Shown: positions 3,293-32,394 of the stretch, piece after piece
How the letters are laid out: every line of letters begins with the position of its first letter
How positions within the stretch are numbered: the first letter of the stretch is position 1
Notes under the pieces: generated by a model
Seen by the model: the letters and a program-made list of their open reading frames with translations, nothing else
What the model was told of the DNA's origin: nothing
Database searches by the model: none
Made by a program: the position numbers and the translations under genes
From: a virus
Length of the DNA: 32,394 nucleotides
IMG/VR virus record: IMGVR_UViG_3300022752_000249
Coordinates: 1-32,394 of that record
Strand: one strand, 5' to 3'

Positions 3293-4597
3293 TTACATCA
3301 AATTAACAACCTTGGTACGGCGGTAGTACTGATTGCGATCTGCTGTGAATGTAGCACCATCTAAATCAGTTGTATTTGCCGATGATGTCACATATGGGTT
3401 AGCAATTAAACCATAACGTGTCTTGAAGCCAATCTTTGGCTGGAAGCTATTAGGATCAACTGCACGAACCATTTGAAGTGGAACATATGGGCAATAGAAT
3501 AAACCTGCGTCATATGGACTTGAACCTTTATATCCAACAACATAAAACTGATTAGCATTATTAAGATTTGCTGAATATGGATCAATGTATACGCGATAGC
3601 GTCCATTCAAAACACCCGCAAATGTGTTGCCTGTGTCATCTACGTTAAGATTTGTTGATAAAGCTGGAGCATAATCAAGAACACCTGACATAGCTAATGC
3701 ACTTGCAACGTCTGCAGAGCAAACAATGAAGTTACCTTTACCACGACGTGTATCTTGGGCAATTGCGTTAGCATCGCGCTCAATATTGAATAACAAACCC
3801 TTGAAGCGCTCTACTGACCAACGACCATTAGAATCGATATCTAGATCAAATGTACCTGCAGTTGCGGTTGCTGGTGAACCTGGCTTAGCTACGGTGTAGA
3901 TCAAACGAACGATTTCACGATTGATCTCAAACATAAATTCTTGCGAAAGAATGTTTGATAACTCCGACTCAGCATCAAGACCATGAATTGCTTTCAAGTC
4001 TTGTGCTAATTCAACAGTGTATTCTGCTTTCAATGCACGTGATTTAGCAGTAACTGTTGTCTTATCAATCGAGAAAGACATCTCACTAAATGCACCACCC
4101 TGTGTAGCACCTGTACCAGTAAGATTTTCTGCTGAAGCTGTAGTCAATCCACCGCTAGTTGTATAAGTACCACTAACTGGGTTTGAACCTGTATGTGTAC
4201 CTGCACCAGTAAACGCAGTGTTAGCTTCATTGAAAAGAGCTTCTACACGTGTTGAAGTATTGGCACGCTCTGAACCATAGATTGATCTCATTGCAAAGAT
4301 CAAACCAGTGGGACCAGTCATAGGCTGAACACCACAAATGTCATATGCCATTAAATTTGGCATAGAACGGCGGACCAATCCTATTAAAATTGGATCATAT
4401 GCTTGAATACCGCTGGTGGCTTGAATGTTGTTTGAAGGAGCTTCCAAAAGTGCTGATCGCTCTTCACGTAAGGATTTTTCCTGATTTTCAAGCAATACTG
4501 CAGTAACAGCTCGCTTATAGGCATCTTTAATTTCTGGTAAATCGGGATGCTTGATAATAGCATCCCATTTTTGTTGTAATTGTTCTGATAAAAACAT
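3293..4597 (-). CDS. gp23: Major capsid protein
   Basis: 434 residues, HK97-fold capsid family of T4-like phages (T4 gp23 has 521). The N-terminal helical region ends in ALLEAPSNN. L50-L51-E52 fits the L/I-x-E consensus of the gp21 protease, so maturation after E52 is predicted. Then come typical gp23 features: YDPILIGLVRRSMPNLMAYDICGVQPM.GPTGLIFAMRS.YG (residues 66-110), a Ser/Thr/Gly-rich loop, SFSIDKTTVTAKSRALKAEYTVELAQDL.A.HGLDAE.EL..IL..E....INREIVR, a GNFIVCSADVASAL segment, and a C-terminal NQYYRRTKVVNLM. Start is ATG with AAGGAG 6 nt upstream. It lies 26 nt after gp22 with no own late box, so it is probably transcribed from the gp22 promoter and stopped by the terminator at 3240-3273. 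The expected neighbour gp24 (vertex protein) is not present. Confidence 0.97.
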   Translation of the reverse strand: MFLSEQLQQKWDAIIKHPDLPEIKDAYKRAVTAVLLENQEKSLREERSALLEAPSNNIQATSGIQAYDPILIGLVRRSMPNLMAYDICGVQPMTGPTGLIFAMRSIYGSERANTSTRVEALFNEANTAFTGAGTHTGSNPVSGTYTTSGGLTTASAENLTGTGATQGGAFSEMSFSIDKTTVTAKSRALKAEYTVELAQDLKAIHGLDAESELSNILSQEFMFEINREIVRLIYTVAKPGSPATATAGTFDLDIDSNGRWSVERFKGLLFNIERDANAIAQDTRRGKGNFIVCSADVASALAMSGVLDYAPALSTNLNVDDTGNTFAGVLNGRYRVYIDPYSANLNNANQFYVVGYKGSSPYDAGLFYCPYVPLQMVRAVDPNSFQPKIGFKTRYGLIANPYVTSSANTTDLDGATFTADRNQYYRRTKVVNLM

Positions 4598-22735: not shown

Positions 22736-24034
22736 CTAAAACTCTATAACTATATGTATATTTTCTGATTGATCCGCAGCCCTGGAAATTTTACCTCGAT
22801 TTTCATAGAACAAAATTTTACCAGTATTTTTTACTACTTCTGAATTTTTTATAGAATGAACATAAGCAGTTGCAGCTGAGGAACTTCCTGTAATTGTATC
22901 GCCTACTCTGAAACTAATAAATCCGTTACTAATATCTCGATTTTGAATATACTTTACATCAAATCGTGCACCTGTTCCAGTTGAAATAATTTGAGCATTT
23001 GCTTTAGAAACACTTCCTAATATAAACTCATCAGGTAAAAATATTCCAGATAATGGGGCAACATTTAATGTATTTGTTGCATCATAGGTTAAAAGCTCTG
23101 CTTCTAATAAGGTATTTGCATCAATCGGCGCTTCTATTAAACCTATGGTTCTAAAATCATTAGAAATAGGAAAATCTCCAGATCCCTCTGCAAAATCAAT
23201 TCTACTATTAATAAGTACCCGGTAACCTCCCAACTCCTCAATGGAATCTTTTCCATGTCCTCCGTAAGGAGATACAACTAATCTTGCATTAGCTCCAGAG
23301 CCTCCTCCGCCCATTACAAAAAGATTAGCATAAGTATAGTTAACACCGGGATTATTGACAGTATAACCTACTATACTGTTAGCTGAAGATACAATAGGTA
23401 CTATATTCGCATTGGAACCGTTTCCTACAACATTGACAGTTAGATTTGCCACATTTGTATAATTGGAACCAAGAGTTAAAATTTTTACATTTTCCAATGA
23501 ACCATTTTTAGCATAATATGCAACATCCGTATTCAAATTAACAGGCATATAGTCTCTAGTTTCAAATCGTAATCTGTCATTATCATCAATAGAATACATA
23601 TACTTCCACTTGTAACTATCGGCAGTTAAAAAATAGTTAAATGATTTACCCCGAGGTTCTTGAGTTGAAATAGATCCATAATTATTAGAAATACATTTAT
23701 AAACGTTATTTTCTGAATTTTTTACAAAATAATTTTTATTAAATAAATCAAAATCTAAATCATCGTATTCATCCACTATTATACCTGCTGTCCATTCTAC
23801 TCTAGGAATTACATGTTTAACATCTGCAAAATTTATTCGTTTTAATGCTATTATATCTTCCCAAGTTCTAAAATGATCAGAAGAGTCCGTGGGGGTAGGG
23901 GGAGACAAATCATCGTCCCATGGTCTAGCCCTTGCTATAAACAAATAAAGCTTTCTATTGTTAATAGGATTTAATGAATTTATAAATTGTTTCGCATTAT
24001 AAATTCTAAAAGATCTAGTGGCTATTTTTGGCAT
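22736..24034 (-). CDS. gp8: Baseplate wedge subunit
   Basis: 432 residues (T4 gp8 has 334). N-terminal matches to T4: LYLFIARARPWDDD..PPTPTDS (T4 IFITFGRSEPWSSN...PPYPTDS), DVKHVIPRVEWTAG, then VYKCISNN, and SYKWKYMYSID. The C-terminal GKILFYENRGKISRAADQSENIHIVIEF closely mirrors T4 GEMIYMENRPPIIMAMDQTEEINILFTF. Between these ends, residues about 175-260 carry two copies of a G-x-x-Y beta module (LTLGSNYTNVANLTV and VNNPGVNYTYANLFV), which explains much of the extra length. GAGGAAAT precedes the ATG, and an exact late promoter box lies 19 nt upstream. Confidence 0.93.
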   Translation of the reverse strand: MPKIATRSFRIYNAKQFINSLNPINNRKLYLFIARARPWDDDLSPPTPTDSSDHFRTWEDIIALKRINFADVKHVIPRVEWTAGIIVDEYDDLDFDLFNKNYFVKNSENNVYKCISNNYGSISTQEPRGKSFNYFLTADSYKWKYMYSIDDNDRLRFETRDYMPVNLNTDVAYYAKNGSLENVKILTLGSNYTNVANLTVNVVGNGSNANIVPIVSSANSIVGYTVNNPGVNYTYANLFVMGGGGSGANARLVVSPYGGHGKDSIEELGGYRVLINSRIDFAEGSGDFPISNDFRTIGLIEAPIDANTLLEAELLTYDATNTLNVAPLSGIFLPDEFILGSVSKANAQIISTGTGARFDVKYIQNRDISNGFISFRVGDTITGSSSAATAYVHSIKNSEVVKNTGKILFYENRGKISRAADQSENIHIVIEF

Positions 24035-24052: not shown

Positions 24053-24060
24053 TATTTATA
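24053..24060 (-). promoter_or_regulatory. T4-type late promoter box TATAAATA
   Basis: Exact TATAAATA on the minus strand, overlapping the TAA stop of the 555-aa gene and 19 bases upstream of the gp8 ATG. It gives gp8 and the following baseplate genes a transcript independent of the giant adhesin gene. Confidence 0.75.
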
Positions 24061-25723
24061 TGTAATCAAAAATAACAAAAGAATGATCTGCAGTAAGATA
24101 AAAATTTGTACCGAAAACAACAGTATCTACTGTCACTGTACTTTTATCACAAGTAATTGCTAAATAATTCCAAATTTCTGTACTAACCGATGTTGTGTCT
24201 ACCGAAACATTACTTTCTGTTGTTATAAAAACCTCACCAAATACTTCTGTTCCAGCAGGATGAACAGTTTTTCTTATTACATCTTGCCATTCTTCCTTTG
24301 GTATATTAGTTTGTACAACGTATGAATATGGTTGGTAATAAAGGGGATATTGATTTATCTCAGATTTTGATCCTCTTAAATAAATTAATTCAGATAATTT
24401 ACCTCTAGAGTTTTTCCAATAACCATCTGAAATTTTTATAGCACCTATATTAGCCAACAAATTTGCAGTATTATTATAAATAAGATTTGCAAAATAATTG
24501 CCAGGAGCTTGGCTTGTTCTAAATCTAAATGATTGAGAATTAACTACAGTATATATTTTTGCTGTTACATTTACAACACTATTTAATTCTACATTACAAG
24601 TATTTAGATTTAATAATCCGTGTTCCAATGAAGTACTTGTAAAGGTAGCAATATTATTTGGGGTACTAGATACTATGGAAACCGTCCCTTCTATACGTTT
24701 AAGGGGCGAATCAATGGTGACTATTGTATTAGAATAATAAAAGACACCATTGTCTATTATTTCAATATAATTTAATCTTCCAGAACGATCCAATCCCTTT
24801 ATTTTTACAATTGCTAGTTCACCATTTAAACTATTTACTATTATTTTATTGTTGCTAGTATAACCTATTCCTCGATTTATTATATCTATACCTATTAAAC
24901 TTGGAATAATTTTGGCATTTACAGTTATAACATTACTAGTATCTACTAATTTATTACTCACTATTATTTCATCAGCAATAAATTGACCATCAATTGAATT
25001 TTCATCTATATTAAGTTCATAAAAAATTTTAGTATTGCTAGTTATTTGTGTAACTCTACTTACTGTAGCAGTAGCTCCACTAGTTTGCCCAATAATTTTA
25101 CTATTTTCTAGAAAAAATGGATTGTATCCATTTCCTTTTTCCACATGCATAATATAATCTTTTATCCATTGGCCATCTGATGCCTTTAAAACAAAATCTT
25201 CTGGATAAAATATTTCTATTTCCTCATTGTATAATGCTCTAAATAAAATTTTATGAGCATTTGCTGTTCCATTAGTTTTATATAAATCTTTTACTCTTTT
25301 TATAAAAGTTCTTTTATCAGTAATTAAATTTTGGGGAATATTACTTGCATAATTAGTAAAAAAATTACTTAGTAGAGAATCTACAGTTGTATCAATATCC
25401 GTATACGATTTTATATTTTGTAAAACTTCTTGCGCATTACCATTAGATTCTAAAAATTTATAGTAAGCATCTAAAAATTTATTAAATTTTGATTTTTCTT
25501 CGTCTCTTCCAAAACCAAAATTTCCAGAAACTATAGTTACCGGAAAAATATTACTAGCTATTAATCTTGTACTGGATTTTATTGATTGAATGTAAATAGG
25601 GGATATAAAGGATCCATGTATTATTGTATCACCAATTTTTAAATCTTCGGATGGTTCTACTAGTACTAAAACATTAGAATTAGCACTTACTGATCCATTG
25701 AGATTAACTATTCTTACAGTCAT
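24056..25723 (-). CDS. Baseplate wedge-associated structural protein
   Basis: 555 residues. Helical N-terminal region: EEKSKFNKFLDAYYKFLESNGNAQEVLQNIKSYTDIDTT (about 75-115), DKRTFIKRVKDLYKTNGTANAHKILFRALYNEEIEIFYPED (about 137-178), then SDGQWI. Blocks like these are common to marine T4-like structural proteins next to gp6/gp8. The middle has GQTSGATATVSRV and two G-x-x-Y beta modules (INRGIGYTSNNKIIV, IDNGVFYYSNTIV). The C-terminal EEWQDVIRKTVHPAGTEVFGEV (about 477-498) is also recurrent. It lies in the T4 gp7 position, but no similarity to T4 gp7 is visible. The ATG shares one base with the adhesin stop, with AGAGGAGG 6 nt upstream. Confidence 0.72.
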   Translation of the reverse strand: MTVRIVNLNGSVSANSNVLVLVEPSEDLKIGDTIIHGSFISPIYIQSIKSSTRLIASNIFPVTIVSGNFGFGRDEEKSKFNKFLDAYYKFLESNGNAQEVLQNIKSYTDIDTTVDSLLSNFFTNYASNIPQNLITDKRTFIKRVKDLYKTNGTANAHKILFRALYNEEIEIFYPEDFVLKASDGQWIKDYIMHVEKGNGYNPFFLENSKIIGQTSGATATVSRVTQITSNTKIFYELNIDENSIDGQFIADEIIVSNKLVDTSNVITVNAKIIPSLIGIDIINRGIGYTSNNKIIVNSLNGELAIVKIKGLDRSGRLNYIEIIDNGVFYYSNTIVTIDSPLKRIEGTVSIVSSTPNNIATFTSTSLEHGLLNLNTCNVELNSVVNVTAKIYTVVNSQSFRFRTSQAPGNYFANLIYNNTANLLANIGAIKISDGYWKNSRGKLSELIYLRGSKSEINQYPLYYQPYSYVVQTNIPKEEWQDVIRKTVHPAGTEVFGEVFITTESNVSVDTTSVSTEIWNYLAITCDKSTVTVDTVVFGTNFYLTADHSFVIFDYI

Positions 25724-28700
25724 TAGATGCCTCCTCTGGTAAATTCTGGTATTAGTTGCTGCACAATTGAGGATGGCCTATTATCAGTATCTCCTAAATT
25801 TTCAATAGATGTGGTATTAGATGGAGGAGGTAAAATAATTTGACCTGGCTCAACAACTACGGGTAATACTTCTTTAAAATTTGCCGGCACTATAGTTTGA
25901 AAAGAGTAATCATTAACAAAAATAGTTATATTAGTTTGAGGTCTATTTGTAAGAGTGACTATAAAGGTTTCTGTACCTTCTACCTCAAAATCTCTATTAA
26001 AAGTAACACTAATAGTAGAATTTCCATATTCATTTATAACAAAATTACCCGAGGATATATTTGAGTAGTCTACGCTATCTGTAGTTCCTGAAATACTATA
26101 AGGAATAATAGTATTTTGAATAATACCAGTTGTGGACAAAGTTATATTTACAGTAGAACCTTCCGTCACTATTGTGGCAGGTGTTATAAGTGAAAAACTT
26201 TCAGCAGGTTTAGAAGTATCAGTAATAAATACTGTGACAAATTCTGTTCTACCATCTAACGATACATTTAAGAATTCTGAACCTTCTAGTAATCCATCAG
26301 CAGTAATTGATAAAACTAAACTAGCTGCTCCTGCTGCATTAGTGGTGAAATTACCTGTTAAAGAAGCCCCGCCTATATCTCCTGGTCCGACTCCAAAAAT
26401 AGTATAAGGAACATTGGTACCTGTCGGTAAACTAGTAGTGGTTAGAATAATAACTAATGTATTTCCCTCATTATTAAACAAAGTATTTGCTGTCAAAGAA
26501 TAGGTGGGGAATCCTGTTGAAGTATCTACTATAGGAATATCAATAAATGTCGATGTTCCAAAAATTGTCAATCTTAAAGTTTCTATACCTTCCGTGGTAA
26601 AATCTGAAATAGCATTTAAAGTTACTGATGCTTTACCTGCAGAATTAAGAAGAAATGAACCCCCAGACAAGGGTCTGTTTATATCGGATTGAGATACCCC
26701 TGTGATATTGTATGGAACTGCTACTCCTACTCCTAAATTAGTTGTAGAAAGAATTATTACTATACTTTCGCCTTCTCTAAGTGTAGCAGAATTGGCAGTT
26801 AAAGAATAACTTGGTAAAACAGGTGACGGTGTTAACGATGTATCAACTATTCCGATATCTACATATTCTGATGTCCCATTAATAGCTAATCTTAAAGTTT
26901 CTGCACCCTCAGTTAAACTATCAGCAGTTATGGATAAAACCAAACTTGCCCCGCCTGAGGCATTAGCCGTAAAATTACCTGTTAGAGAAGCACCATTTAT
27001 ATCACTTGTAGAAACACCAGTAATAGTATATGGTATAGTAGTTCCAGCTGCTACGTTAGTAGTTGCTAAAATAATAGCAACAGATCCCCCTTCATTGACA
27101 GAATAACTCGATGCAGATAAGGAATAACTAGGAACTGTTGGAGGTGTTACAGATGTGTCAATTACAGTTATTACAAGTGGAGTTGCTAAACCATTAACTA
27201 AAGAAACAATTAAATTTTCTAGACCTTCTGTCCTTAAATCGTTAGCTAAAGTAAAGGAGATAGTTGCAATTCCTGGAGTGGATCCAGTAGGATTAATAAT
27301 AAAATTGCCTGATAGTGATCCTGCACTTAGATCAGCTGAATTTATTCCTGTTACTACATATGGTACAAGATCACCATCATTTAAACCTGTTGTAGTTAAA
27401 GTAACTGTTACGGATGATCCTTCTGAAACAGTAGGATTTCCAGTAAGAGAATAGGTAGGAAAAGAGGTATCTACAACTGTTACTGATTTAGTTGCGCCAC
27501 CATTATTTAAGCTTAAGGTTAAGGTTTCATTTCCCTCAAGTTTTAAATCATTTGATAAACCAAATGTTACAGATGCCCCACCATTAGCGTTAGTTGTAAA
27601 GTTACCTGTTAATGAACCTGAACTTAAATCTGCAGCATTGATACCTGTCACTGAATATCCTAAAGTGACACCTGATCCAACTCCCGTTGTACCGAGGAAA
27701 AATGTAACACTACTTCCCTCGTTTACAGAATCACCAGCAGCATCAGTGGATAATGAATATACTACTCCGGGGGTAGTAGATGTATCATTGATAGGAACTG
27801 TAATTGATTCAGATCTTCCTATACCTGTTAGAGTAAGGGTAAAAGATTCACCTGCATCTGTTAGTTGATCTGCTTTTATTCTAAAAGTTTTGGAATCTCT
27901 ACCATCACTACCAAAACTTTGTAGATTAAATGTTCCAGATAAGGGAGAACTAAAATTTAAATCTAAATCTGCTGAAGTTATTCCCGAAACAGTATAACTT
28001 TGAATTACATCTTGTGAAGCATAAGGAGATTGAACTAGAAAAATAGTTAAATCATCTCCTTCATTAACTGAGGATTTATCCGCAGTTAAGGTGTAAGTAG
28101 ATGCAGGAAACGAAGAATCGGTGATATCAATATCATTGTATATTGCTACATTATTAATTAACCTAAATCTAAATCTTTCTGTTTGTTCAGTTTTTAAATC
28201 TTGTTTAACAGTTACTGATGCTGTTGCAACACCTGCAGCATTTATTACAAAATTACCAGTGGCAGGAGTATTAAAAAAGTCATCGGTATCTGTTGGGTAT
28301 GTTCCTATTCCTCTTATTTCCCATGGTACAGACGTACCAGAAGATATATTAGTTGTAGTCAAGGTAAATACTACAGTAGTCCCCTCATTAATCGGCGAAT
28401 TTACGTTATTCGTTAAAGTAAATGTTGGAGATGACGGCGAGGTTGAAGTGTCGATTACATCTACAAAGGATGAAACAGGTAATCCATTTAATGTTAATGT
28501 TAGTCTTTCTGTTCCTTCAGATGTTGCATCATTTGAAAGAGTAAATGAAGCAGTATCAGTAGTTCCAACAATAAAATTACCAGTTAAAGACCCAGAACTT
28601 AAATCTCCTGCGGATATTCCAGTAACAGTCCAGGGTATACTTGTACCATTGGACACATTAGTTGTTGCCAAAGTAAAGATGACACTACTGCCTTCATTTA

Positions 28701-31700
28701 CTCTATTATTAGTAGCATTGTTAGTTAAAGTATATACTGGTATAGGTGTAGTGGAAGTATCAAGTACAGTTACTGAAATAGATTCAGCTCTTCCATTCAA
28801 GGTCAATGTAAGTGTTTCAGTGCCCTCTGTCAAGGAATCATTTGAAAGAGTAAATGAAGCAGTATCAGTAGTTCCAACAATAAAATTACCAGTTAAAGAT
28901 CCAGAACTTAAATCTCCTGCAGATATTCCAGTAACAGTCCAAGGCACTGATGTTCCAGCAGCAACATTGGTTGTGGCCAATGTGATAGTGACACTTTGCC
29001 CCTCATTAATAGTAGCTACTGATCTAGTTAAATTATAGGTTGCTACAGGAGCACTAGAAGTATCTAAAATTGATACTGATGCTTGCAATGTCAAAGGAGT
29101 TTGTGTTAAAGGCAACAACGTATTATTTTTATCCACAGCTTGACCAGTTATAGTCATTACCATGGTTTCAGTACCCTCTGTTATTAAATCAGGATTGGTA
29201 ACAAAGGAAATAGAAGTATATATTGAATCCGTTAAATCATTAAATAAGGAAACTGGATCAGATAAACCAGTAAAATCGGGCGCATCTTCTAGACCAAAGA
29301 CTACAAATTCATCAATATTGGAAATGGATAGTAAATTGTTGTTATAGTTATTGACATCAGAATAAGTTTGGGATAAATATCTAAATCCTTGTAATATTAT
29401 TTTTGTTTGTATATTTAAACTACTATATCTGCTTACTGTAGAGGAAGCCCAATTATATAATCTAGTAGCATCCCAGTAGACACTGTTGTTTAAAATACTT
29501 ACTGATGCATTGGCGGGCCATAAGTAAGGAGTAATTGCTATAAAATCTAAACCAGAATTTACTATTTCGTTAGAAATAAAAGCTTCAGTTTTAGTTGAAC
29601 CTTCTGTTCCAGGAAAAGTGTGAGTAAATACTACGGGAGTTAAAGTTACTCCTGTTCTATAACCTAAAGCTTTATAACCATCAGAAATTCTTTTAAGAAC
29701 AGATCCTGTAGGGCAAGCAGGATTCCAAAAAATTCCATCAGATATAATTACCTCACTACCTCGTATATAAACCGAAACAACATCTGTACCTGCACTTGTT
29801 TGAATTTCTCTATTCGGATAAAATACCCAACCTCCTAAATCATTTATATTGGATTTACTAGAGGTGGGATCACTTACTACAAAATTGCCTGTTAAACTAG
29901 GAGATCCTACTAGATCTGAGGAGCTAATTCCAGTTATGGAATAAGGGATCAATGAGCCAGGAGGAATATTTGCAGTATTAAGTGTAAATGTTATGGTTTG
30001 ATTATTTTCATTTACAACGCCTGTAGATGAACTTAAAAGATAAAATGCATTTTGATCTTTAGTGAAAATTGAATAACTACCAGCAGTTGTAGCTACTCTA
30101 GTAGAAAAAGAAGAATTAGTATAAATTTCCATAACAATAGTTTCATTGTTATCAGAAATCGAATCGGTAGTTATTGTTTTTGTTATCTGTCCTCGGCCAT
30201 TACTTCCTATAGTAACAGAACCCGTTATTAAATTATCTGTAAAATCATTAGCTGATACAGTACCAGTAATTTTATAATAGAGAACTGTGCCATTCGATAC
30301 TCCTGTAGTAGATACGGTAAATACTATAGATTTAGATTCTCCAACAACTGTTGTACTAGGATATACATTGTAGGTTTGACTTACAGCAGATAAATTAACA
30401 GAAGTAGTTGCCCTAGAGGGTCCAGAAAAACTACCCTCTAATAAAGTAAGTATTGATGTTTTCGCAGTTGTAAGATTGCCCACTGTTCTTGAAATAGTGG
30501 CGGTATTGTTGTTAATAGTGACAGAATTTTGAATCCATTGAAAATCTGTTGCGGAAGCGCTTCCTGTTTCCTTTAAATATAAAGTAATACCATTCGGTAC
30601 ATTACTAGTTGTTATAGTATAATTTATTACTGTACCAAATTGACCAGTAGTTGGACTAGCTGATATACTAAAAGTCTTTACTGAGGCATTAAAGATATTC
30701 TGCACTGTTCCTGATATCGAAGTAGCCCCCTCGGTTGTACTAGCGGAGTTACTTATATTGTTAGATATTGTTGTGGTGCCACCTACAGAATTATTCTGAT
30801 GATCTCTTATTTGAGATAGTGTATTATTATAATTATTATTATTGGTTATAGTACAGTTATCTATTGTTCTAGAATTTGGCGCTCTGTAAAAAAATATACC
30901 TATCGGTTGGCTAGTATTTCCTGTAGTATTAAAACATCTATTGTATCTTATTGTATTAAGAGTAGCATTAATTGCTCTGTTGGATAAAGATGCTAAAGTT
31001 ATTCCTGCGGCTAAAAAATATGCAGCATAAGTAGTTTCAACTCCGTTATCATAACAGGTATTGTATTCTACAGTGCATCCCGATACATCTGATAGAGAAA
31101 TACCATCTGCGCCACAATTATGAATAGTATTATTTCTAACAGTATGATTATTTCCCCCTAATTCTAATCCTGAGGACGAAATATTTCTTCTAGTTTGCTT
31201 GTAAATATAGTTATTTTCTATTAATAGAGAATTGGCATTTTCATTGGAAAAAACCCCAGATTCTAAATTATTTACAAGTAAATTATCCTTAAATATTCCA
31301 CCTGTCGGCATAAAGTATGCAGCAGACCATCTGTTATTTAAGAATAAGCACTTTTCTATATAAACGTCTTGTGAAGGTATTCCCGCAATAGTATCAGTCC
31401 AAAATGCAGGTGAGCTTACTGGTTGCAGATCTCCTGCCGAACCAAAAATGCCGCAACTTTCAAATTTGGATCCCCATACTCTTACATCTCTGCAGCTACC
31501 TGCTGCCATTCCCATAAAAGAAGTATTTTGTATTATACATTGTATTAAATACAAATATCTATTACCATTAAAAGATAATAGCGCAATAGTTCTTCCACTA
31601 TTATTATTGCCATCAAAAATAATTTTTTGAAAATAAACATTATTGCCCGTGCTAGTAAACATTGAACTACTAGCAGTTAAGGCACTTGTAGCCTTTATAA

Positions 31701-32394
31701 CAGTATTTTGTAGTACACTATCGCCAAGTAATCTAGTATTAGCAGGAACAGTTAGAGTGCTACTAACAAGATAAGTTCCTGCTGGAAAATAAACTGTTTT
31801 ACCTGCCCCGGCATTAAGTGCAGCTTGTATAGCTGTTGTTTGATCTGTACCATTGCCTGAGGCACCATAACTAGCTACACTAATTTGAGTTGTTGAGATA
31901 GCTGCCGGCAATGCATATGCGCTTCCTGCTGCGGTTAAATCTGCAGCACTAAGTATATTTAAATAACCAAAATCACTTTGATAAGAATTTAGAAAATTTG
32001 TTAAAGTACCAGAAATAACATTATTAATTGTTATTGTCGATGTAGCTTGTATTGTGCCAGTGTATCCTCCAGTTTTTAATGATGCAGTGGAATTAATATT
32101 AACTCTATTAGAATTAATTGTCCTTGTCACAGTCGCACTGTTACTGTTTATAACTACTGCTGTTTCGGATAGTCCGTCAACAAAATCTGTGTTAAATGCT
32201 GAACCTGAATAAGTTAAATATAAAGTACTTCCATCTGGAACATTTGTTGTAGTAATAGTATAAGTTATGATCTCACCATTTGCATAACTTAGTTTATTTG
32301 TATTAATAGCAAAAGTAGGAGGCAAAAATCCTAAAGTTAAATTTTGTGCCCCTGCAATTCCAGTTGGATCGTAATAGTTACTGCTTGTCGAATT
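25723..32394 (-). CDS. Giant beta-helix / Calx-beta-like repeat tail adhesin, 5' end outside window
   Basis: At least 2223 residues. The first in-frame start-like codon is a TTG at 32325, but the frame stays open for all 23 codons up to the right edge (reads ..YYDPTGIAGAQNLTLGF), so the true start is outside. Order: one Ig/Calx-beta-like repeat; a pectate-lyase-superfamily beta-helix beginning ISVASYGASGNGTDQTTAIQAAL (about 30740-31885); then 13 further repeats of about 100 residues with N-E-G, TTN, P..ITG, TGNF, EG.E.L.L and DTS landmarks. The fourth repeat overall is interrupted by a separate domain (29220-29870). A Pro-rich tail follows. A side-fibre or depolymerase-adhesin role for host surface contact is inferred. 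Confidence 0.82.
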   Translation of the reverse strand, partial: NSTSSNYYDPTGIAGAQNLTLGFLPPTFAINTNKLSYANGEIITYTITTTNVPDGSTLYLTYSGSAFNTDFVDGLSETAVVINSNSATVTRTINSNRVNINSTASLKTGGYTGTIQATSTITINNVISGTLTNFLNSYQSDFGYLNILSAADLTAAGSAYALPAAISTTQISVASYGASGNGTDQTTAIQAALNAGAGKTVYFPAGTYLVSSTLTVPANTRLLGDSVLQNTVIKATSALTASSSMFTSTGNNVYFQKIIFDGNNNSGRTIALLSFNGNRYLYLIQCIIQNTSFMGMAAGSCRDVRVWGSKFESCGIFGSAGDLQPVSSPAFWTDTIAGIPSQDVYIEKCLFLNNRWSAAYFMPTGGIFKDNLLVNNLESGVFSNENANSLLIENNYIYKQTRRNISSSGLELGGNNHTVRNNTIHNCGADGISLSDVSGCTVEYNTCYDNGVETTYAAYFLAAGITLASLSNRAINATLNTIRYNRCFNTTGNTSQPIGIFFYRAPNSRTIDNCTITNNNNYNNTLSQIRDHQNNSVGGTTTISNNISNSASTTEGATSISGTVQNIFNASVKTFSISASPTTGQFGTVINYTITTSNVPNGITLYLKETGSASATDFQWIQNSVTINNNTATISRTVGNLTTAKTSILTLLEGSFSGPSRATTSVNLSAVSQTYNVYPSTTVVGESKSIVFTVSTTGVSNGTVLYYKITGTVSANDFTDNLITGSVTIGSNGRGQITKTITTDSISDNNETIVMEIYTNSSFSTRVATTAGSYSIFTKDQNAFYLLSSSTGVVNENNQTITFTLNTANIPPGSLIPYSITGISSSDLVGSPSLTGNFVVSDPTSSKSNINDLGGWVFYPNREIQTSAGTDVVSVYIRGSEVIISDGIFWNPACPTGSVLKRISDGYKALGYRTGVTLTPVVFTHTFPGTEGSTKTEAFISNEIVNSGLDFIAITPYLWPANASVSILNNSVYWDATRLYNWASSTVSRYSSLNIQTKIILQGFRYLSQTYSDVNNYNNNLLSISNIDEFVVFGLEDAPDFTGLSDPVSLFNDLTDSIYTSISFVTNPDLITEGTETMVMTITGQAVDKNNTLLPLTQTPLTLQASVSILDTSSAPVATYNLTRSVATINEGQSVTITLATTNVAAGTSVPWTVTGISAGDLSSGSLTGNFIVGTTDTASFTLSNDSLTEGTETLTLTLNGRAESISVTVLDTSTTPIPVYTLTNNATNNRVNEGSSVIFTLATTNVSNGTSIPWTVTGISAGDLSSGSLTGNFIVGTTDTASFTLSNDATSEGTERLTLTLNGLPVSSFVDVIDTSTSPSSPTFTLTNNVNSPINEGTTVVFTLTTTNISSGTSVPWEIRGIGTYPTDTDDFFNTPATGNFVINAAGVATASVTVKQDLKTEQTERFRFRLINNVAIYNDIDITDSSFPASTYTLTADKSSVNEGDDLTIFLVQSPYASQDVIQSYTVSGITSADLDLNFSSPLSGTFNLQSFGSDGRDSKTFRIKADQLTDAGESFTLTLTGIGRSESITVPINDTSTTPGVVYSLSTDAAGDSVNEGSSVTFFLGTTGVGSGVTLGYSVTGINAADLSSGSLTGNFTTNANGGASVTFGLSNDLKLEGNETLTLSLNNGGATKSVTVVDTSFPTYSLTGNPTVSEGSSVTVTLTTTGLNDGDLVPYVVTGINSADLSAGSLSGNFIINPTGSTPGIATISFTLANDLRTEGLENLIVSLVNGLATPLVITVIDTSVTPPTVPSYSLSASSYSVNEGGSVAIILATTNVAAGTTIPYTITGVSTSDINGASLTGNFTANASGGASLVLSITADSLTEGAETLRLAINGTSEYVDIGIVDTSLTPSPVLPSYSLTANSATLREGESIVIILSTTNLGVGVAVPYNITGVSQSDINRPLSGGSFLLNSAGKASVTLNAISDFTTEGIETLRLTIFGTSTFIDIPIVDTSTGFPTYSLTANTLFNNEGNTLVIILTTTSLPTGTNVPYTIFGVGPGDIGGASLTGNFTTNAAGAASLVLSITADGLLEGSEFLNVSLDGRTEFVTVFITDTSKPAESFSLITPATIVTEGSTVNITLSTTGIIQNTIIPYSISGTTDSVDYSNISSGNFVINEYGNSTISVTFNRDFEVEGTETFIVTLTNRPQTNITIFVNDYSFQTIVPANFKEVLPVVVEPGQIILPPPSNTTSIENLGDTDNRPSSIVQQLIPEFTRGGI
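28528..28941 (-). repeat. Near-identical 105-bp direct repeat pair
   Basis: Copy 1 is 28528-28632 and copy 2 is 28837-28941, a constant offset of 309 bp. Read by eye they differ at two positions (28591 versus 28900, and the third base of a CCTGC[G/A]G stretch). They encode the TGISAGDLSSGSLTGNFIVG and following strand of two adjacent repeats. The flanking parts of the same repeats are more diverged. Confidence 0.9.
29220..29870 (-). other. Domain nested inside an adhesin repeat
   Basis: About 215 residues between SLTGNFVVSD (first half of a repeat) and TSISFVTNPDLITEGTE (second half). It has strand-helix alternation: ISDGYKALGYRTGVTLTPVVFTHTF, GLDFIAITPYLWP, IQTKIILQGFRYLS, IDEFVVFGLEDAPDF. 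This resembles part of a TIM-barrel-like alpha/beta enzyme, but I cannot assign a family or catalytic residues. The break falls in the loop where other repeats have a short NASGGAS-type turn. Confidence 0.65.
30740..31885 (-). other. Pectate-lyase-type right-handed beta-helix domain
   Basis: About 380 residues inside the adhesin. It begins with SVASYGASGNGTDQTTAIQAAL and VYFPAGTYLVSSTLTVPANTRLLGD, the usual entry to pectate-lyase-3-type helices. It continues with short strand rungs rich in Asn and Gly (FDGNNNSGRTI, IIQNTSFMG, VRNNTIHNCGADGISL, VEYNTCYDNG). Phage domains of this fold commonly bind or cleave surface polysaccharide; the active site is not identifiable here. Confidence 0.82.

Follow-up and report, generated by a model that had tools for sequence, protein, structure and literature searches.

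In RTX adhesins such as AhLap of Aeromonas hydrophila, the axis of the fibre is flanked by ligand-binding domains that Ig-like "split domains" hold away from it (PMC12077191), and split domains have also been described in FrhA and in RTX adhesins of A. veronii (PMC10865825). The split domains of RTX adhesins are further treated by Graham et al. 2024 (prot.26689), as cited in PMC12077191 and PMC10865825. In the evolved distal tail proteins (evoDit) of lactococcal skunaviruses, Dit contains insertions that harbour carbohydrate-binding modules and that promote adsorption (PMC10688798).

The DNA analysed here, referred to as the window, is the whole 32,394-base stretch of the IMG/VR virus record IMGVR_UViG_3300022752_000249, from an uncultured, T4-like phage of aquatic origin. 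The adhesin that it encodes resembles both the RTX adhesins and evoDit by its anatomy and is a member of neither. As in the RTX adhesins, an Ig-like domain of a repeat array is interrupted by a whole budding domain, the ends of which lie on one side and which would be held off-axis. It differs from them in being the product of a phage structural gene located beside baseplate genes, in having a Calx-beta-like repeat as the carrier instead of an RTX extender, and in that the nested domain is predicted to be TIM-like; no RTX (nonapeptide beta-roll) family is found among the Pfam matches of the part of the adhesin in the window. With evoDit it shares the principle of a phage adhesion protein with internal insertions, carbohydrate-binding in the case of evoDit, the ends of which align with an uninserted form; however, the carrier is a repeat/beta-helix fibre of a T4-like myovirus and not Dit, and the predicted TIM-like domain differs from the BppA-like CBM of evoDit. 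Among the papers searched, none describes this architecture in a phage. The split-domain principle being already known, what is new here is most probably its use by a phage, in a split domain that carries a new orphan domain family.

Genomic context and architecture of the adhesin

The window encodes the head and baseplate module of a T4-like myovirus, as judged from PHROGs matches, and its major head protein shows approximately 63% identity with its counterparts in Synechococcus phage S-SKS1, Methylophilales phage Melnitz, and Pelagibacter phage HTVC008M. The adhesin gene adjoins the baseplate genes (PHROGs matches), and the protein is presumably located on the tail. The relevant features are as follows:

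3293-4597: major head protein, phrog_138 match
22736..24034, minus strand: baseplate wedge subunit, 432 aa, phrog_438 (E 4.2e-108)
24056..25723, minus strand: gene after the adhesin, product of 555 aa with similarity to baseplate wedge/virion structural PHROGs, phrog_17744 (E 1.7e-53)
25723..32394, minus strand: adhesin/fibre gene, one continuous frame of at least 2223 residues, 5' end outside the window
25726..25899, minus strand: C-terminal tail following R13, residues 2166-2223, last residues PSSIVQQLIPEFTRGGI
25900..29043, minus strand: ten unsplit repeats, R4-R13, residues 1118-2165
29044..29217, minus strand: split repeat R3, second half, residues 1060-1117, first residues TSISFVTNPDLITEGTE
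29218..29871, minus strand: nested domain, predicted to be TIM-barrel-like, residues 842-1059, 218 aa
29872..30051, minus strand: split repeat R3, first half, residues 782-841, last residues SLTGNFVVS
30052..30678, minus strand: repeats R1 and R2, residues 573-781
30829..31884, minus strand: pectate-lyase-like right-handed beta-helix between R0 and R1, residues 171-522
32011..32319, minus strand: repeat R0, residues 26-128

Within the window the adhesin thus consists of a beta-helix and 14 repeats. The beta-helix matches PF12708 (E 1.1e-15) and PF13229 (E 3e-9) in Pfam and the tail spike family phrog_2234 in PHROGs. The repeats score 12 bits against PF03160, for which the Pfam gathering cut-off is 27, and since they fall below this threshold they are called Calx-beta-like only.

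A relative of the adhesin is encoded by another IMG/VR contig, L020, whose baseplate wedge subunit is 64% identical to that of the window; judged from this neighbouring protein, L020 and the window belong to the same phage lineage. The C-terminal ends of the adhesins of L020 and of a further contig, L021, are similar to that of the window (KPSSFIENLIPEINRSG). In L020 (56-7033) a subtilase domain occupies the N-terminus, in the region that for the present adhesin lies beyond the edge of the window. As the first residues encoded in the window (NSTSSNYYDPTGIAGAQNLTLGF, positions 32320-32394) resemble the end of this subtilase domain, the window adhesin may also start with a subtilase. R0 has its closest match in the L020 repeat that comes just after the subtilase domain. 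An open frame of 305 codons runs on the plus strand opposite the repeats (28121-29038) and is probably only a by-product of their codon use.

A repeat interrupted by a complete domain

The first-pass annotation had proposed that the fourth repeat of the adhesin is split in the loop right after its SLTGNF strand by an insert of about 215 residues. This is confirmed: R3 (the fourth repeat when R0, which lies before the beta-helix, is counted) is a beta-sandwich repeat with a whole domain lodged between two neighbouring strands, and the bounds given at that time, 29220-29870, are off by at most 2 bases for an insert that proves to be 218 residues long. With a repeat profile built from R4-R13 alone, the two halves of the whole R3 (residues 782-1117) match profile columns 2-57 and 59-91. 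When the halves are run separately, the first reaches 47.9 bits over columns 2-55 and the second 15.2 bits over columns 62-92, with an additional match to columns 82-101, as compared with maxima of 7.8 and 7.5 bits for shuffled controls of the first and second half (200 per half).

The insertion site is the tight hairpin after SLTGNF, typically NxxGxAS. Counted from the F of GNF to the D that is conserved in DxxTEG, this stretch measures 230 residues in R3 versus 14-20 in the ordinary repeats of the window; across 120 unique repeats of related loci the median is 15. The insert is no outlier relative to the repeats in GC or GC3. An assembly artefact is strongly disfavoured, because the independent contig L020 has the same domain at the same site.

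Relatives of the nested domain

Searched by itself, the insert matches nothing in Pfam, PHROGs, or the PDB sequences, and its NCBIfam matches are at chance level only, in agreement with the first-pass annotation, which had recognized no family. PDB sequence matches with E values of 0.24 and above were rejected as chance, and so was a weak similarity (E 0.8) to the lysin of a Rhodococcus phage, which falls in the LGFP repeats of that protein. Neither tblastn searches against sequenced phages and plasmids nor pattern scans of IMG/VR and GTDB genomes gave relatives of the insert. A search of IMG/VR with the repeat instead gave 79 loci, and among these tblastn with the insert detects two copies in L020 (E 2e-48 and 3e-16) and one in L021 (E 3e-11). 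Later scans with alignments of the insert gave no contigs beyond these two, and none among genome contigs.

The three relatives are 24-45% identical to the window copy, and all of them are nested in the same repeat hairpin, the L020 pair in successive repeats. Judged on the flanks alone, the first split repeat of L020 is the best match of R3, and the second is without a split counterpart in the window. The window copy and the first L020 copy form an A type (45% identical), and the second L020 copy and that of L021 form a B type (48%). Across the four copies 23 positions are invariant, and the loops differ greatly. On these comparisons, the insert is an undescribed domain family with four members.

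Predicted fold

When AlphaFold2 was run on the single sequence, pLDDT was 34. This low value is attributed to the absence of an alignment, since with one of 22 rows, composed of the four split repeats and 18 ordinary (unsplit) ones, the mean pLDDT rises to 81.4 (pTM 0.62). In the resulting model the insert alternates strands and helices, and the repeat halves are almost entirely beta with high pLDDT, the unsplit rows of the alignment favouring a joined sandwich. Taken by itself, the single-sequence result would agree with an insert that is disordered or that represents one or two degenerate repeats; both are highly implausible, given the pLDDT reached with relatives in the alignment, the clear helices of the insert as opposed to the all-beta repeats, and the lack of any repeat-profile match inside it.

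The matches of the model to the PDB in Foldseek are weak, the best being a putative alpha-L-fucosidase (4h41, E 1.7e-3, TM about 0.28), followed by various TIM barrels and chitinases, so that the assignment of the fold rests on VIA-align and on secondary structure. VIA-align, run on the Foldseek-matched PDB chains with model residues 61-271 as the aligned region, gives Z scores of at least 8 for 30 chains, with PdxJ at the top (Z 9.9 over 144 residues, rmsd 3.2), followed by 4h41 (9.2), GH10 and galactanase (9.1), GH128 (9.0), and GH26 (8.8). The insert is accordingly predicted to have a TIM-barrel-like fold, perhaps a reduced one. The earlier expectations of a separate, compact, barrel-like domain of alternating strands and helices nested in a loop of what is in other respects a normal repeat, and of glycosidase folds among its structural matches, are borne out by the model and by the many glycosidases among the best VIA matches, and the disordered or degenerate insert that the first-pass annotation had named as counter-evidence is contradicted.

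In BFVD, the best match is the baseplate hub of Synechococcus phage S-CAM3, which covers the whole model with an rmsd of 12.7. The baseplate hubs of Synechococcus phages Sf-FR1 and S-WAM2 (L016:6943-10443 and L017:7093-9927) have Calx-beta-like repeats that are unsplit; as no TIM-like insert is seen in them, the S-CAM3 match is read as a repeat-to-repeat similarity.

Binding, catalysis, or spacer

A common fold does not give function, and with a family of four members conservation says little. Within these bounds the predicted fold resembles that of TIM-barrel glycosidases (4h41, GH10, GH26, GH53, GH128; VIA Z 8.2-9.2), from which the insert differs in having no detectable sequence relation to them and no strand-end acid present in all copies; similar Z scores are also obtained with PdxJ, which is not a glycosidase. 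TIM-barrel sites lie at the C-terminal ends of the strands. No acidic residue at such a predicted end is conserved in all four copies, with the strand numbering being uncertain, and the invariant acids D109, D187, and E188 precede or begin predicted strands. The invariant W49 and Q161, on the other hand, are found at or just past the C-terminal ends of predicted strands, a placement that would suit sugar binding. As these two strand-end residues are invariant and the acids there are not, glycan binding is favoured over catalysis and, as a conclusion drawn from four sequences, is rated somewhat above even.

It has to be noted that catalytic activity of the insert, such as the trimming of polysaccharide on the host surface by a glycosidase, would also account for the TIM fold and for the prominence of glycosidases among the best structural matches, and predicted hydrolases are present in the same repeat arrays. 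Moreover, E22, E195, and D196 are kept in both A-type copies, E195 and D196 directly after the last predicted strand. These three positions are, however, gaps in the B type, no strand-end acid is common to the four copies, and no Pfam or NCBIfam enzyme family matches the insert; membership in a glycosidase family is rejected on sequence grounds, as searches of Pfam, NCBIfam, and the PDB sequences yielded no glycosidase. Catalysis is thus unlikely, and of the earlier proposal of a nested, possibly enzymatic domain the nesting is retained and the enzyme is not. The insert might also have no ligand and be a mere spacer or decoration that drift, or selection for a variable surface, has maintained. 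This would agree with the lack of a family match and with the widely differing loops, but it is less probable still, as a folded core with its 23 invariant positions has been kept at this level of divergence and different domains recur in the repeat slots of other phages. Glycan binding is therefore the reading carried forward here.

Nested domains in related loci

A repeat is clearly split by an insert of at least 80 residues in 8 of the 79 loci (L020, L021, L036, L042, L024, L058, L030, and L031, with L042 and L031 judged by the same coordinates only), and as some pairs look near-identical the number of independent events is smaller than eight. The split repeats suggested for L032 and L033 were too weak to be counted. 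In four of the loci a mostly helical domain of approximately 300 residues is located in the loop before the GNF strand:

L036:10457-11359, L024:10778-11671, also L042 and L058: helical nested domain with an EVIEHVxHTLHxHG-type motif

It has no family match in PHROGs or the PDB, and a stretch of the baseplate wedge protein Syn33_094 of cyanophage Syn33 (NC_015285) shows 70% identity to the copy in L036. Syn33_094 is without Calx-beta-like repeats and is thus a different scaffold, which implies that nested modules are found in more than one scaffold. The Syn33_094-type module resembles the window insert as a portable nested module of other aquatic phages, from which it differs in being unrelated in sequence and in using a different loop. 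The hairpin that carries the window insert is occupied in L030 (9314-9568) and L031 by a beta-rich insert of 85 residues, in which no similarity to the sequence of the window insert was seen.

The arrays of this repeat family also carry accessory modules aimed at surface polymers, namely the beta-helix of the window, subtilase, GDSL lipase, and BD-FAE esterase; subtilase domains are found in the arrays of L020, L021, L024, and L036, and the GDSL lipase and BD-FAE esterase in L021. In the latter contig (2220-12088), three successive adhesin genes encode a string of predicted surface-acting hydrolases: the first a subtilase, a repeat, a BD-FAE/alpha-beta hydrolase, and PA14/GLEYA, the second two repeats and a GDSL lipase, and the third the nested TIM-like domain with repeats. 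Nesting of the alpha/beta-hydrolase and GDSL domains was rejected, as they look appended after repeats.

Proposed model and implications

In the model proposed here, which we consider moderately probable, an autonomous TIM-like domain of an undescribed family has been inserted at the beta-hairpin of a single Calx-beta-like repeat and is displayed so as to bind, and possibly modify, a host-surface glycan during adsorption. The repeat would close around the insert, and since both ends would then leave on one side, the far face of the insert would be directed away from the fibre axis, as in the RTX split domains. Nesting, the recurrence of the family in a single hairpin, and the different domains in the slots of other phages are direct observations, to which the outward display and the glycan binding would be added by the model. 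In a broader and more tentative extension, which we regard as possible though somewhat doubtful, the repeats of aquatic phage adhesins would have two standard slots, one in the hairpin that follows GNF and one in the loop that precedes it, and would exchange unrelated domains there as cassettes, including a new TIM-barrel lectin or enzyme, and the reach of the adhesin would be changed by nested modules and not by fibre tips alone.

How T4-like phages of marine and fresh waters recognize their hosts is, to our knowledge, little understood, and most of the long adhesins that they encode lack annotation. Under the split-domain rule of bacterial RTX adhesins, the interruption of a repeat by a whole domain marks the site of a binding or processing module. 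Since a single repeat family accommodates several unrelated domains at two of its loops, this rule seems to be valid for phage fibres as well and could consequently be used to pick receptor-interacting modules from the sequences of uncultured phages.
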